From the NCBI GenBank assembly GCA_017476545.1, contig JAFUZP010000011.1, forward strand, positions 1 to 36,473: DNA of 36,473 nt, in the 5' to 3' direction. The position numbers and the translations under genes are program-made. Shown here piece by piece: positions 7,628 to 36,459 of the stretch; the stretch's first letter is position 1; every line of letters starts with the position of its first letter. The notes under the pieces were generated by a model. That model was not told where the DNA came from and ran no database searches. It saw only the letters and a list, made by a program, of their open reading frames with translations. Source of the stretch: Alloprevotella sp. (GTDB lineage Bacteria > Bacteroidota > Bacteroidia > Bacteroidales > Bacteroidaceae).

Positions 7628-7707
7628 TACCCCTACGGGTAAGGGAAACTAACCGCAGGGTTACGGTGTCCTAACCCTATGGTTACGAAAAACTACCCCT
7701 AAGGTTA
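7628..7707. repeat. 22-bp phased palindrome array 1 (4 units)
   Basis: Four 14-bp imperfect palindromes of the TAACCCTNNGGTTA type begin at 7628, 7650, 7672 and 7694, so the period is exactly 22 bp. The 8-bp spacers (AGGGAAAC, CGGTGTCC, CGAAAAAC) are not conserved. The array lies between the divergent OMP and ATPase genes. The same unit occurs in four other intergenic regions. Confidence 0.9.
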
Positions 7708-12249: not shown

Positions 12250-12618
12250 ATGAACACAGAAAACGCTAAATCGCAAATGCGGAAGGGGATGTTAGACTTT
12301 TGCGTCCTACTCCTGCTGCGCCGTGGCCCGTCCTATGCCGCCGACATTATCCTGCGGCTGAAGGAAGCCGAGCTGATTGTAGTGGAGGGGACCCTCTATC
12401 CCCTGCTGTCCCGCCTGCGCCGCGACGGCCTGCTGTCCTACCAGTGGCAGGAGTCGCTCCAAGGGCCGCCGCGCAAGTATTATTCGCTCACGCCGGACGG
12501 GCTCCGGGTTTTGGACGAACTGGATGCCGCCTGGGAGGAACTGGCCCGGACGGTGGGGCTGCTGAAGTCGGCCCCGCCCGTACTGCCCGCACCGGGGGAT
12601 GTGCCTATCCGCCTCTGA
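12250..12618 (+). CDS. PadR-family transcriptional regulator
   Basis: A 122-aa winged-helix protein of the PadR family. The core MRKGMLDFCVLLLLRRGPSYAADIILRLKEAELIVVEGTLYPLLSRLRRDGLLSYQW is the standard PadR N-terminal wHTH, followed by GPPRKYYSLTPDG (the wing) and a short C-terminal dimerisation helix. The start is the ATG at 12250, 55 bp after a good promoter. It precedes the PspC-domain gene by 61 bp on the same strand. PadR-PspC pairs are common in Bacteroidota, where the regulator is presumed to control the membrane protein and itself. The inducing signal cannot be read here. Confidence 0.93.
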   Translation: MNTENAKSQMRKGMLDFCVLLLLRRGPSYAADIILRLKEAELIVVEGTLYPLLSRLRRDGLLSYQWQESLQGPPRKYYSLTPDGLRVLDELDAAWEELARTVGLLKSAPPVLPAPGDVPIRL

Positions 12619-12679
12619 CGCGGAGGACTTGGGGCGCGGTCGCGTCCCGGAATGTGGAACTAAAAAAAACAGACCTTCT

Positions 12680-13870
12680 ATGAAAAAGAATTTCACCATC
12701 AACCTGTTCGGCGTACTCTATAACATAGACGAGGACGCCTATGAGCTGCTCGACAGTTATCAGCGGAACATGCGCGCCTACTTCTCGCGGCGCGATGGCG
12801 GCGAGGAAGTGTGCGAGGACATTGAGCACCGCGTGGCCGAACTCCTTTCCGATATGAAGGCGGAGGGGGTGGAGGCCGTAAACATTGACCACGTGCGCTC
12901 CATTATCCGGCGCATCGGCAATCCCGAGGACATGACCGGTGCGGACGAGCCTGCCGACACCCCGTCGGATGGCGGCGGTGAGGGGCCTACTACGCCTCCG
13001 CCCCCGCCTGAGCCGGAGCGTCCCCGCCGTCGGCTTTTCCGCGATCCGCAGGACAAGATGCTGGGCGGTGTGCTGTCGGGGCTCTGCAAGTTCTTCGGCG
13101 GCAACGACCCCCTGCCGTGGCGCATCATATTCCTGCTGCTGTGCCTGCTCTCCTGGACGTCGCTGGCCGTGGTATATGTGGTGCTTTGGGCACTCATGCC
13201 CGAGGCCCGCACGGCGGAGGAACGCCTGCAGATGTGCGGCAAGCCCGTGAACCCGCAGACGCTCAACGAGGAAATCATGCGCGGCGTGGACGCAACGCGC
13301 AACTTCGTCAATGCCCCCGCCATGCAGGCCCGTGCACGCGGATGCCTCGGCACGTTTCTGAGTGTCGTTGTGGCCTGCCTGAAGGCTTTCGGCATCTTCT
13401 TCCTCGCCTGCCTGCTGCTCGGCCTGCTCTTTGTTATCACCCTGTTTTGCTTCGCGCTCTTAGCCGGAGGCAAGGCTGTCATGGCAGCCGGCCTGCCCTA
13501 CTGGGGCTGGATGGAGGTGTCCACGCAGGCACCCGCCTTGTCTTGGCTGCTCATCGTGTTCTTCGTGGCGGCCTTTACGAGCGTCGCACTCCCCCTCTAT
13601 GCCCTCATCCGCAGCTTCCTGCGGCGGCCCGATAGCAAGCCCGCCTCGGCAGGGCGGCACATGGTCTTCCTCATCGTGTGGCTGTTGGCCGTGGCACTGG
13701 CCATCATCACCGGTATAGCTACGGGGAGTTTCTTTGACGATGCTATGGACCGGATTGAGCAGGTGCGTCCGGAGGCTTACCAGGAGGCGGATATGCGCAG
13801 CGGCATCTACCTGACGGGCGGCTCCTGGGGCTACCTGAAGCAGGGCGGCTGGGTATTCCGCCCGCTGTAG
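12680..13870 (+). CDS. PspC-domain membrane protein
   Basis: A 396-aa protein. Residues 1-90 (MKKNFTINLFGVLYNIDEDAYELLDSYQ... ending RSIIRRIGNPEDM) form the N-terminal domain found in Bacteroidota PspC proteins. An acidic/Pro-rich linker follows. Next is the PspC domain (RRRLFRDPQDKMLGGVLSGLCKFFGGN, then a membrane segment ending VLWALMPEA), then several more hydrophobic helices to the C-terminus. PspC relates to the phage-shock, envelope-stress response; the role of this architecture is presumed to be envelope stress. The start at 12680 is chosen for the conserved MKKNF opening. It is probably co-transcribed with padR. The T-run AAAAAAAACAG just upstream is noteworthy but unexplained. Confidence 0.88.
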   Translation: MKKNFTINLFGVLYNIDEDAYELLDSYQRNMRAYFSRRDGGEEVCEDIEHRVAELLSDMKAEGVEAVNIDHVRSIIRRIGNPEDMTGADEPADTPSDGGGEGPTTPPPPPEPERPRRRLFRDPQDKMLGGVLSGLCKFFGGNDPLPWRIIFLLLCLLSWTSLAVVYVVLWALMPEARTAEERLQMCGKPVNPQTLNEEIMRGVDATRNFVNAPAMQARARGCLGTFLSVVVACLKAFGIFFLACLLLGLLFVITLFCFALLAGGKAVMAAGLPYWGWMEVSTQAPALSWLLIVFFVAAFTSVALPLYALIRSFLRRPDSKPASAGRHMVFLIVWLLAVALAIITGIATGSFFDDAMDRIEQVRPEAYQEADMRSGIYLTGGSWGYLKQGGWVFRPL

Positions 13871-13891: not shown

Positions 13892-14082
13892 TAACCCCAG
13901 GGTCACGACGGAGTGACCCTGGGGTTAGTTTTTACGGAGGCCGGCGGACCGCGCTCCTTACCCCATGGGGTAGCCGTCCCTAACCCTGCGGTTACGGCGC
14001 ACTGACCGTAGGGTTAGTTCTTCGTAACCCTATAGTTACTTCTTCGTAACCCTATAGTTACTTCTTCCTAACCCTATGGTCA
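13892..14082. repeat. 22-bp phased palindrome array 2 (8 units, largest)
   Basis: Units of the 14-bp TAACCCTNNGGTTA-type palindrome start at 13892, 13914, 13959, 13981, 14003, 14025, 14047 and 14069. All steps are 22 bp except one of 45, where a degenerate unit seems to have been lost. The last spacers are nearly identical (GTTCTTCG, CTTCTTCG, CTTCTTCC), and the units at 14025 and 14047 are identical 22-mers. The array separates pspC from the small-ORF element at 14140. Confidence 0.92.
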
Positions 14083-14170: not shown

Positions 14171-14296
14171 ATGCCTTACGCGTATATATATAATAACGGT
14201 ATAGCCGCTTCCGCAGTAGCGGAGGGCGGTTCTGCCTGTGTTTACGGGGCGGGAAGTGCCCGAATTACCCCCCCTCGCGCTTTGGTTATCAAGTAG
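14171..14296 (+). CDS. Conserved 41-codon small ORF, copy A
   Basis: It encodes a 41-aa peptide starting MPYAYIYNNG and ending GSARITPPRALVIK, stop TAG. Copy B at 36334 has the same length with no indels, the same start and stop, and identical ends (MPYAYIYN and AGSARITPP-x-AL-x-IK), while the middle differs. It begins about 20 nt after a promoter and is followed by a terminator at 14322. No Shine-Dalgarno is visible, as usual in this phylum. Substitutions between copies are not concentrated at third positions, and the middle contains a hairpin with compensatory changes, so the conserved unit may be an RNA rather than a protein. It could also be a leader peptide for the gene at 14495. Confidence 0.4.
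   Translation: MPYAYIYNNGIAASAVAEGGSACVYGAGSARITPPRALVIK
14205..14229 (+). ncRNA. Covarying hairpin within small-ORF element, copy A
   Basis: TCCGC (14210-14214) pairs with GCGGA (14219-14223) around AGTA, and CCGC (14205-14208) pairs with GCGG (14226-14229). In copy B the inner stem is identical but the outer stem is changed on both sides to GTCGGC/GCCGAC. Paired change with retained pairing suggests selection on structure. Confidence 0.5.
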
Positions 14297-14494: not shown

Positions 14495-15181
14495 ATGGAC
14501 GAAAGAATGAACGAGAACGCTGCGCCGTGCGCCGACGAGCGGGCTTTGGAGGCGGCTGTGGCAATGGCGGCGGGTGCTGCGCCGGTGGAGAAGAAGTACG
14601 TGAAGCCTGCGATGCAGGTGTTTCCGTTGGGTTGCGGGCTGCTGGCGGCGAGCGTACCTGCAGGGCCGCCCGTGCGGGTGGCTATAGGGGTGCTTTATGG
14701 GGTAGACTACTATTATGAGCCAGGTGGCGGCTGTTTTATTTATGAGGGGCCTCTTGGTTTCCGTACTCGTACAAATACGACCGGCTGTGGTGCTTTGCTT
14801 GATCCTGGCGTTCGTTATACAGAAGCCGGGGTAGGGAGTAATATTGAAACCGATGGTTGGTACTTTGAGTGTGGCGACGTGGTCGGCGGTTCCTCATTCC
14901 TTACTCAGTATGCAGCCAAGGCCACTGCCATGCGAAGCTATGTGGACGAATGCACCGACTGCGGGAATTTTATTTGGGCTTCCGGCGGCCTTTCCAGCGT
15001 CTGGTGTGGCAGTGGCTTGTATCCGACACCGGGGCTTACGCCCGACGTGGCCTTCAGCGGTGCGGACTGGGACGTGCAGGACTTCTTTGCCAATGCGGAG
15101 TTTGACGCGTGTTCCGGGGACGGCAGCACCTTCAGCGGTACGTATGACGGGCGCAGGTTCGAGGGGCGGATAAATGACTGA
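14495..15181 (+). CDS. YVKPxM-family protein of unknown function, paralogue 2
   Basis: A 228-aa protein. Residues 1-32 are Ala-rich and hydrophilic, then KKYVKPAMQVFPLGCGLLAAS (about 33-53). A variable centre follows with VDYYYEP, FECGDVVGGSSFLTQYA and a TDCGN Cys cluster. The C-terminal block TPGLTPDVAFSGADWDVQDFFANAEF...TFSGTYDGRRFEGRI is nearly the same as in the gene at 32757. No membrane helix or lipobox is seen. The constant-variable-constant layout, Cys content and local drop in GC in the middle point to diversification under selection or recombination. A role in secretion or as a modified peptide precursor would be speculation; no maturase or exporter is adjacent. Confidence 0.82.
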   Translation: MDERMNENAAPCADERALEAAVAMAAGAAPVEKKYVKPAMQVFPLGCGLLAASVPAGPPVRVAIGVLYGVDYYYEPGGGCFIYEGPLGFRTRTNTTGCGALLDPGVRYTEAGVGSNIETDGWYFECGDVVGGSSFLTQYAAKATAMRSYVDECTDCGNFIWASGGLSSVWCGSGLYPTPGLTPDVAFSGADWDVQDFFANAEFDACSGDGSTFSGTYDGRRFEGRIND

Positions 15182-20717: not shown

Positions 20718-20756
20718 ACTCTTGCGGCCCGTTCCGTGGGCAGCGGGAGAATTTGG

Positions 20757-20870
20757 AGGGGAAGTTAAAGAGGAAGTTATGCCCATTCGGGCGGGCAGGA
20801 CAATAGTCTCACGATTGTTTTTAGTACTATTGTCTGGCGCGAAGCGCCTAGCTTCCTTTTTAACTTCCCT
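20757..20870 (+). repeat. Cloverleaf-like nested inverted repeat
   Basis: An outer stem of about 18 bp is formed by 20757-20776 (AGGGGAAGTTAAAGAGGAAG) and 20852-20870 (CTTCCTTTTTAACTTCCCT), with one bulge and one wobble. Within it lie three hairpins: TGCCC/GGGCA (20780-20797), GACAATAGT/ACTATTGTC (20799-20834, 18-nt loop) and GGCGC-GAA-GCGCC (20836-20848). The result is a four-way junction, 40 bp past the rfbB stop. It could be a terminator region, a stable RNA or a small mobile-element remnant. No direct repeat flanks were found by eye. Confidence 0.65.
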
Positions 20871-21015
20871 TCCGTAATGCCCTTTTTGCCTACCTACCTT
20901 TTCCTACCCTGTTGCCTACCAGCCCTTAAAGCCAAGCGTCACCGCCATCCGCAGGGCCGCTTGTTCCGTATCCGAGTCCCGGCTGCGCGTCGCCGCCGGC
21001 AGACAGGGGGGAAAC

Positions 21016-21095
21016 TACCCATAGGGTCACGGCGGACTAACCCTATGGGTAGGAAAAATTAACCCTGCGGTTAGGATAAACTAACCGCAGGGTTA
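21016..21095. repeat. 22-bp phased palindrome array 3 (4 units)
   Basis: Units begin at 21016, 21038, 21060 and 21082, exactly 22 bp apart. The first two are TACCCATAGGGTCA and TAACCCTATGGGTA; the last two are TAACCCTGCGGTTA and its reverse complement. Spacers are CGGCGGAC, GGAAAAAT and GGATAAAC. The array lies between convergent rfbB and purA, so it is not tied to a promoter here. Apart from this array and the cloverleaf, 20871-21172 shows nothing supported. Confidence 0.9.
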
Positions 21096-32197: not shown

Positions 32198-32277
32198 TAC
32201 CCCTAGGGTTAGCCATCCTTACCCCGAGGGACAGTTGGCCGTATCCCTGCGGTTAGTTGGCCGTAGCCCTATGGTTA
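32198..32277. repeat. 22-bp phased palindrome array 4 (4 units)
   Basis: Units begin at 32198, 32220, 32242 and 32264, exactly 22 bp apart: TACCCCTAGGGTTA, TACCCCGAGGGACA, TATCCCTGCGGTTA and TAGCCCTATGGTTA. The last two 8-bp spacers are identical (GTTGGCCG). This is the most degenerate of the arrays, yet the phase is kept perfectly. It lies between the natAB terminator and the structured leader at 32360. Confidence 0.88.
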
Positions 32278-32651: not shown

Positions 32652-32756
32652 ATGTCCGCTGCGGCGGCGCGCTGCTCGTTTGTGGCTCCTGCACATAAAC
32701 GAGGCCGCCGAAAATCGTGAAAAGAGTAGGCACGATCAATCAAAAGTCTTGAGATT

Positions 32757-33419
32757 ATGGAAAAAGACATGAAACTGAGCGGCGCGCCGTGCGCCGACGG
32801 GCGTGCTGCGGCTGCGGGGGGTGCGGACGCCGCGCCGGAGAGAGCGAAGAAACCCTATGTGAAGCCCACGATGCAGGTCTTCAAGCTGAACTGCCAGATG
32901 CTGGCGGCGAGCGGGGCATCCGTATTTGTCAGAATCTCTCCTATGCCTGCAGTAGACTATTATTACACGGCAACTACAACAGACGATGAGTGGCTGTATA
33001 CTGGCCCTTGGGATAGCGAGCTATTAGATGGTTCGTTTGGGGAGGGATACCTATGCGGCGGGTGCGGACTTGATATACTTATGTTTGGCTGGAAGTTCGG
33101 CGCTTCCGATGTGGTCGGTGGTTCTTCTTTCCTTTCGGCGTATGCCTCTGAGGCGGCGCGCCGGCGCGACCAGGTGGACGATATTACTGACTGCGTGTAC
33201 CATAAGTACAGGTATAACTTTGACAGGTATCTCCCTTGGCGGCGTTGTGGCCGCGGCATCATCGATACGCCGGGGCTTACGCCAGACGTCTTCTTTGTGG
33301 GTGCGGACTGGGACGTGCAGGATTTCTTCGAAAACGCGCAGTTCGACACGGCCGCTGATGACGGCACCTTCAGCGGGACGTACAACGGGCAGAGGTTCAA
33401 GGGGAGGATAGATGGGTGA
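32757..33419 (+). CDS. YVKPxM-family protein of unknown function, paralogue 3
   Basis: A 220-aa protein. Its Ala-rich N-terminus (GAPCADGRAA...GGADAAP) recalls parts of both paralogues, followed by KKPYVKPTMQVFKLNCQMLAAS at about residues 31-52. The centre has VDYYYTA, a YLCGGCGLDILMFGWKFG Cys segment and ASDVVGGSSFLSAYA. The C-terminal TPGLTPDVFFVGADWDVQDFFENAQF...TFSGTYNGQRFKGRIDG is close to paralogue 2. No signal peptide, helix or catalytic motif is seen. Its 5' region is unlike the leader of genes 1 and 2: it has the structured leader instead. Its 3' flank matches gene 2. Function unknown. Confidence 0.82.
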   Translation: MEKDMKLSGAPCADGRAAAAGGADAAPERAKKPYVKPTMQVFKLNCQMLAASGASVFVRISPMPAVDYYYTATTTDDEWLYTGPWDSELLDGSFGEGYLCGGCGLDILMFGWKFGASDVVGGSSFLSAYASEAARRRDQVDDITDCVYHKYRYNFDRYLPWRRCGRGIIDTPGLTPDVFFVGADWDVQDFFENAQFDTAADDGTFSGTYNGQRFKGRIDG

Positions 33420-36143: not shown

Positions 36144-36245
36144 GCCCCTATGGGGTAGCCATGCTTAACCCTGCGGTCAGTGCGCCGTAACCCCGGGGTT
36201 AGTTCTTCCTAACCCTATGGTTAGTTTTCCTTACCCCTATGGTTA
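36144..36245. repeat. 22-bp phased palindrome array 5 (5 units)
   Basis: Units begin at 36144, 36166, 36188, 36210 and 36232, exactly 22 bp apart. They include the perfect palindrome TAACCCCGGGGTTA and TAACCCTATGGTTA, each with symmetric outer arms. The spacers GTTCTTCC and GTTTTCCT recall those of array 2. As at 13.9 kb, the array ends about 50-60 bp before the promoter of a small-ORF element. Confidence 0.92.
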
Positions 36246-36333: not shown

Positions 36334-36459
36334 ATGCCTTACGCGTATATATATAATATAGGTATGTCGGCTTCCGCGTGCGCGGATGCCGACTATGCCC
36401 GTATTTACTGGGCGGGAAGTGCCCGAATTACCCCCCCATACGCTCTGGGAATCAAGTAG
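36334..36459 (+). CDS. Conserved 41-codon small ORF, copy B
   Basis: It encodes a 41-aa peptide starting MPYAYIYNIG and ending GSARITPPYALGIK, with stop TAG, aligned without gaps to copy A at 14171. The first eight codons and the GSARITPP segment are identical at DNA level. The middle differs and contains a perfect two-part hairpin (36366-36393). The promoter is 24 nt upstream. The terminator, leader and family gene expected downstream would lie beyond the window. Whether it is translated is undecided, for the reasons given for copy A. Confidence 0.4.
   Translation: MPYAYIYNIGMSASACADADYARIYWAGSARITPPYALGIK
36366..36393 (+). ncRNA. Covarying hairpin within small-ORF element, copy B
   Basis: GTCGGC (36366-36371) pairs with GCCGAC (36388-36393) and TCCGC (36373-36377) with GCGGA (36382-36386), with a T-T mismatch between stems and a 4-nt loop. 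It is longer and more perfect than copy A; the outer stem sequence differs while pairing is kept. Confidence 0.5.

Follow-up and report, generated by a model that had tools for sequence, protein, structure and literature searches.

We found that an Alloprevotella genome carries tandem arrays of a 14-bp imperfect palindrome which are phased at 22 bp, consist preferentially of four units, lie between genes and are over-dispersed at the kilobase scale, with indifference to orientation and transcription context; relatives carry other palindromes in arrays with the same period. Such a design suggests either that bacterial chromosomes can be marked or organised in a manner not yet described, or that a mobile repeat has spread with unusual regularity. 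The window, i.e. the whole stretch of DNA analysed at the outset (36,473 nucleotides), corresponds to contig C42 of a draft genome of 1.98 Mb (46 contigs, 80% complete), which is called the home genome below.

Twenty-five units are present in five regions of the window (4, 2 + 6, 4, 4 and 5 units; Table 1), and the 22-bp phase is broken by one 45-bp step that separates arrays 2a and 2b (13914 to 13959). All of them lie where a preliminary description of the window had put them; its likening of the motif to telomeres is a resemblance of letters only. With up to three mismatches on both strands, the window contains 61 matches as compared to a mean of 15.6 and a maximum of 30 in 100 shuffles. An Rfam scan of the window arrays gave no family at gathering score.

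Table 1. Position and composition of the palindrome arrays in the window
Array	Position	Strand	14-bp units	Period	Gene context
1	7628..7707	.	4 (7628, 7650, 7672, 7694)	22 bp	flanking genes divergent
2a	13892..13927	.	2 (13892, 13914)		starts 21 bp past the stop of gene 12599-13870
2b	13959..14082	.	6 (13959 to 14069)	22 bp	
3	21016..21095	.	4	22 bp	flanking genes convergent
4	32198..32277	.	4 (unit 2 degenerate)	22 bp	80 bp past a gene end
5	36144..36245	.	4 from 36166, plus a degenerate unit at 36144	22 bp	

The neighbours of array 3 encode dTDP-glucose 4,6-dehydratase and adenylosuccinate synthase (both above curated cut-offs). Another array neighbour has its best match to methylmalonyl-CoA decarboxylase alpha (792 bits versus a cut-off of 999), and the gene upstream of array 4 shows a weak ABC-permease match. 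Array 3 is separated from the dTDP-glucose dehydratase gene by an inverted repeat (20755-20782 / 20846-20873, 28-nt arms, 86% complementary), which encloses another (20792-20807 / 20826-20841). The Rfam DUF805b RNA is located at 32698-32732 (+) with 44 bits (gathering score 35.6), directly upstream of the gene at 32757. The proteins encoded at 105-698, 14495-15181 and 32757-33419 (+) appear by eye to have similar N-terminal parts (KPAMxVF / KPTMQVF ... C); the latter two showed no match to NCBIfam models. A 41-residue small ORF with the start MPYAYIYN is found at 14171-14296 (+) and 36334-36459 (+) and has 18 matches in the 817-kb sample of the genome used below.

A search of the whole home genome with up to two mismatches gave 563 motif matches on one strand and 549 on the other, where the backward control gave 20 and 25; the pair phased at 22 bp had 311 matches and its control none. 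Of 69 neighbouring pairs no more than 120 bp apart in a 436-kb sample (up to one mismatch), 59 are spaced at 22 bp. The preliminary description had named such a sharp peak in a genome scan as support; chance frequency elsewhere, lack of phasing or a total of only five copies, any of which it would have taken as refutation, were not observed. Arrays were called in 817 kb (41% of the genome) by chaining matches in 22-bp steps to a position matrix that was built from part of the same sample. The scan at the threshold used detected 76 arrays and none in the reversed sequence, which scales to about 185 arrays in 1.98 Mb. Four units are by far the commonest number (48 arrays), followed by five (12), two (7), six (6), three (2) and eight (1). 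In the four-unit arrays the positions just outside average about -22 bits versus 17 to 19 inside, the low outside scores being partly by construction, as a scoring fifth unit would change the class. When these 48 arrays were aligned and oriented by their spacers, conservation spanned about 88 bp with very little beyond. The 8-bp spacers have a polar consensus with G at position two and AAC at the end (the polarity comes partly from the spacer-based orientation), and all three spacers run in the same direction in 29 of the 48 arrays. A CRISPR array, also discounted in the preliminary description, was rejected on the grounds that the units are degenerate and the spacers share a consensus of their own.

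Units are about as similar within an array (10.36 of 14 positions) as between arrays at the same place (10.39) or at different places (10.29). The median best-orientation identity of home array pairs is 0.65, and the three pairs that reach 0.83 to 0.95 belong to small-ORF segments. Fourteen of the 76 arrays adjoin 13 copies of the small ORF, some of them through segmental duplication. These loci are paralogous segments made up of array, promoter-like linker and ORF, with mean identities of 0.71, 0.75 and 0.88, respectively; the array has diverged about as much as the non-coding linker and the ORF is conserved. The home arrays look saturated, which suggests age. This apparent saturation contrasts with the absence of the motif from the sister species searched; either the whole site set moved to a new specificity, or sets were lost and regrown.

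The distance between arrays is also regular. After merging arrays closer than 1 kb, the 65 home gaps have a mean of 10.6 kb and a coefficient of variation (CV) of 0.46, and a single gap is under 3 kb. Random placement of the same numbers in intergenic gaps gave a CV of 0.84 (equal weight) or 0.85 (length-weighted) and about 12 gaps under 3 kb, and the observed CV was reached in 0 of 3000 nulls under either weighting. Without the 14 small-ORF-linked arrays the spacing is less regular (CV 0.60 versus 0.86, reached in 3 of 3000 nulls). A relative with its own palindrome (G099) shows the same avoidance: its 59 arrays leave 44 gaps, the shortest 6.4 kb, so that 0 of 44 are under 6 kb versus a null mean of 12.4 (0 of 5000), and the gap CV is 0.61 versus 0.90 (5 of 5000). 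These G099 values were taken from 100 listed of 110 pattern matches, where unlisted or diverged arrays could conceal short gaps, and the null was uniform along the contig, not limited to intergenic space.

Comparison with related genomes, which the preliminary description had proposed, gave a divided answer: the motif itself is at the chance level of the backward control in 57 other genomes of the genus, occurs in degenerate form in one rumen MAG, and other palindromes are found elsewhere. Of 150 further genomes of the family, 149 lack the home motif pair at up to two mismatches, and the last one has a single match of different sequence. The rumen MAG is RUG12436, recorded as an uncultured Bacteroidales bacterium, and belongs to the same family as the home genome, with a shared sample match at C105:26172. 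It contains 7 phased pairs at up to three mismatches (control 0) and, by eye, degenerate arrays of about four units at five places. At L092 3548-3740 it also has about four tandem copies of a different 22-bp unit (GCAGTATCTCCTATGGG) and then further copies in reverse orientation. At three mismatches, one pair each was found in 8 of 200 genomes of the wider family besides RUG12436 (control 9). The exact pair pattern hit four records in a contig database, from which the home genome's own records were possibly omitted. Searches of two of the genomes concerned gave the 7 pairs stated above for RUG12436 and 1 pair for Ectobacillus (control 2), and each of the remaining two records has one pair, seen at the locus level only. 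Viral contigs gave two isolated pairs.

A motif-free reading of the sister species revealed a self-similarity peak at lag 21 in G099 and G199, which is due partly to coding repeats and also to arrays of TCCAT-N3-ATGGA with a period of 21 bp (13 + 8, as compared to 14 + 8 in the home genome). The TCCAT-N3-ATGGA pair occurs 127 times in G099, 102 times in G199, once in G187 and in none of 55 further genomes. When 18 relatives were scanned for phased palindromes at periods 15 to 33, 40 intergenic arrays were detected; 32 of them have period 21 or 22, and these come from 10 of the 18 relatives. Reversed sequence is unusable as a control here because palindromes survive reversal, and the comparison among periods and one local shuffle were used instead; the shuffled copy of all the relatives' sequence gave 0 arrays at period 21 or 22, a mild null since local shuffling also removes tandem similarity. 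The relatives' samples were 20 to 338 kb and partly picked near motif matches, so that little weight attaches to the missing 21/22 period in 8 relatives. In G114, 60 kb contain at least three different palindromes (TTGTCTTATAAGACAA, TACCTCAGAGGTA and TTTGGTTTATATAAACCAA arrays), and further palindromes, frequently in three or four units, are found in G160, G167, G182 and G043. The TTGTC family is limited to G114 (11 pairs) and G043 (3) among 58 genomes searched. Intergenic TAACTCCC tandem repeats were seen by eye ahead of a gene in G160 (L069 1-260). That 21 to 22 bp is kept in relatives with unrelated palindromes agrees with the selection on a two-turn phase proposed in the preliminary description. 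Kilobase spacing, four-unit preference and the change of motif between species lie beyond what was described for the window. Array positions are shared with a sister species in 1 of 12 testable flanks; the test is weak, since the sample lacked a reciprocal match for 19 of 31 flanks and the base rate was 12 of 62. The neighbours of the purA gene in the sister species are different by eye.

A mobile element with target immunity is the main rival to a chromosomal function and accounts for the spacing too. A non-autonomous REP- or MITE-like element would spread the 88-bp array, target immunity or selection against close copies would give the spacing, and selection against insertion in genes or near promoters would leave the intergenic pattern. 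We regard this origin as a serious possibility, albeit a somewhat doubtful one. It is favoured by the high copy number restricted to single species or species pairs and by large contigs without listed arrays in G099 and G199. The G099 contig C1 (365,711 bp) has 0 matches to its own motif up to three mismatches, with a G+C content of 0.63 in the first 20 kb that is within the range of the other contigs; among the listed matches, C3 (221 kb) has one and C5 none. In G199, contig C1 (689,279 bp) has 0 pairs at 0 or 1 mismatch and one degenerate array in the first 20 kb. Many arrays of these two species lie, by eye, within a longer dispersed repeat with leader and tail (L147-L155, L136-L144), whose CTATATGGC-like ends face one another and whose stem is GCGGACG/CGTCCGC; L153 carries two near-identical copies of the array-bearing repeat. 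A comparable element is the BrickBuilt MITE of Porphyromonas gingivalis, in which a leader and a tail accompany tandem repeats of 23 nt (PMC4596501). The home arrays, in contrast, have no common flank and little trace of recent copying, and the three most alike pairs are all from the small-ORF segments; a search for a conserved flanking motif in the home genome found none, the top k-mers being mostly from these same segments.

Linkage to transposase-type genes was also considered. A single weak Y1 hit was obtained in the home genome (24.2 bits against a cut-off of 23). No own-motif unit is close to a Y1 gene in G000, G199 or G099 (the 3.2 kb around the home hit and the surroundings of one Y1 gene in each of G199 and G099 contain none, all in draft genomes), and the array-bearing G186, G153 and G182 have no Y1 hit, which also speaks against mobility. 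Some phased array is present at 4 of 30 Y1-gene loci. The Mu/TnsB-type domain PF09299 had no match in five genomes, and no control genome matched either. A RAYT/REP origin is not supported, the gene-linkage data consisting of a weak Y1 hit and draft genomes.

The position of the arrays relative to genes was determined with a simple codon-model gene caller written for this analysis. None of the 76 arrays lies within a called gene, and a single one overlaps the end of a called gene, by 25 bp; such intergenic enrichment had been named in the preliminary description as support. The 71 arrays with both neighbours are flanked by convergent (13), divergent (15) and tandem (43) genes, as predicted by the 229 available intergenic gaps of at least 140 bp (37, 46 and 146, respectively; p = 0.87). 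It has to be considered whether each array is the operator of a global transcription regulator that controls the adjoining promoter. Operators are often tandem dyads with two-turn spacing. Thirteen of the 18 sampled small-ORF copies start at a distance of 88 to 91 bp from the end of an array, and the intervening stretch is promoter-like (judged by the Bacteroidota promoter motif). These ORFs are uncalled; called starts are at least 97 bp from the 71 arrays. We nevertheless consider the operator reading unlikely: convergent genes flank 13 of the 71 arrays, just as intergenic space alone predicts, 41 of the 43 arrays in tandem contexts sit nearer to the end of the upstream gene than to the next called start, and a regulon is not expected to be over-dispersed. 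Placement at a putative promoter is seen for the 13 small-ORF copies, and elsewhere the contexts are those of intergenic space.

Pairing between the arms of the palindrome was analysed in 183 units from 45 arrays, three of 48 arrays having been excluded beforehand as probable false ones. Pairs 1-14, 2-13, 4-11 and 5-10 show no pairing excess over shuffles. Pair 3-12 matches above the shuffled level (110 of 183 versus a mean of 93 and a maximum of 107), and the central pair 7-8 is also associated. The inner pair 6-9 pairs below it (51 of 183 versus a mean of 83), a consequence of a core that is mainly CTNN or NNAG. Pair 2-13 is A-C in 28 units, G-T in 28 and G-C in only 2. When arrays between same-direction genes are read as transcripts, the mismatches comprise 50 G-U and 49 A-C; array polarity is unrelated to gene direction (21 of 37). 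Units within an array are not generally complementary, units 1 and 2 giving a weak signal (p 0.026 and, for the core, 0.0025), and the neighbouring units 2-3 and 3-4 have slightly greater direct likeness. Two half-sites contacted by a protein on double-stranded DNA would suit these data better than an RNA hairpin. An RNA-level element, with tandem hairpins as terminator or transcript stabiliser, is highly improbable, for although folding is strong in window arrays 2b and 3 (z -8.0 to -10.8; -1.1 to -2.3 in arrays 1, 4 and 5) and arrays are frequently close to gene ends, the deficit at pair 6-9, the equal G-U and A-C mismatches, the divergent genes at 15 of 71 arrays and the lack of general complementarity between units all oppose it, and neither compensatory pairing (pair 3-12 excepted) nor G-U tolerance nor an Rfam family was found.

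We tentatively favour, with less than even confidence, the reading of the arrays as chromosome-organising nodes bound by rows of dimers; the protein, dimer binding, cooperativity and the architectural role are inferred. Each array would be a tandem site for a dimer-binding protein that recognises a 14-bp dyad with the half-site TAACC and the core CT or AG. Typically four dimers would be packed side by side on one helix face, two turns apart, over 88 bp in total. About 185 such nodes between genes, regardless of the direction of the neighbours and kept kilobases apart, may serve as anchors or barriers between chromosomal segments of about 10 kb. Related species would use other palindromes for the same design, via changed protein specificity or takeover by a paralogue. 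A two-turn period and mostly four units are kept while the sequence changes, so geometry appears to matter, as for a row of dimers on one face; over-dispersion and indifference to transcription context indicate that the functional unit is the chromosome, not the gene. Taken together, geometry and chromosome-level function favour nodes. The cooperative dimer of the preliminary description stands in part: selection on phase and a dimer on one helix face fit the low arm compensation, the fixed phase and the predominance of four units, with the protein itself predicted from the pattern of sites.

Several observations count against the node reading. The lack of arrays on the large G099 and G199 contigs argues against even marking of a whole chromosome and shifts some weight from nodes to the mobile element. 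The excess pairing at 3-12 and the 7-8 association, the 14 of 76 arrays that are tied to small-ORF copies and without which the spacing is less regular, the 1 of 12 flanks common with sister species and the phased arrays at 4 of 30 Y1-gene loci point the same way. The three palindromes of G114 need several proteins or a looser rule, which is also adverse. For the Bacteroidales lineage as a whole, the nodes of about four dimers would be held apart while the recognised sequence turns over and number, phase and exclusion distance are kept, i.e., a fast-evolving boundary or loop-anchor system with several specificities in some genomes; in this broad form the proposal is rather unlikely.

If the arrays are boundary marks, their sites are predictable from sequence, the protein should be obtainable by pull-down with an array probe, and the determinants of bacterial domain borders become directly testable. 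Fast-evolving centromere or boundary systems would offer a parallel, the motif changing and phase and exclusion being retained. If the arrays are mobile elements with immunity, they would exemplify genome colonisation of unusual regularity. To our knowledge, and in the open-licence literature searched, boundary marks that are defined by sequence and kept about 10 kb apart have not been described in bacteria.

Among known repeats, REP/BIME elements have a cognate RAYT gene next to the repeat copies. They are short, high-copy palindromes outside genes, regularly spaced in clusters, for which a role in chromosome organisation has been proposed (PMC2817692). The home arrays are alike in being many short palindromes outside genes with regularly spaced units. 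They differ from REP/BIME with RAYT (IS200/IS605-like) in their 14-bp units, fixed 22-bp phase, mostly four units and kilobase over-dispersion. A GTAG or CGTC tag at one end of the REP/BIME palindrome has been described (PMC3733652), and no such tag is present in the column counts of the 48 aligned home arrays. This, together with own-motif units not being near Y1/RAYT-type genes in the three species with a known motif, supports the earlier statement that the arrays are unlike REP/BIME. Porphyromonas gingivalis is itself a member of the Bacteroidales. Its MITE BrickBuilt is present as 19 elements with 1 to 22.8 repeats of 23 nt without spacers, and is always intergenic and species-restricted, with possible dyad symmetry, leader, tail and small inverted-repeat ends (PMC4596501). 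The likeness is in intergenic, species-restricted tandem repeats near two helix turns, and in the leader and tail seen by eye in G099 and G199. The difference is that the BrickBuilt repeats have no spacers, and neither a four-unit preference nor a spacing rule is described in the sections consulted. Terminal inverted repeats of the MITE type are not found as a flank of the 48 home arrays (leader, tail and facing ends were seen by eye in G099 and G199), and near-identical dispersed copies are not seen in the home genome, in keeping with its median pair identity. Operator arrays of cooperative repressors and partition sites are built from dyads at two-turn spacing that bind dimers side by side, typically at one or a few loci per replicon; here, by contrast, 76 arrays are found in 817 kb.
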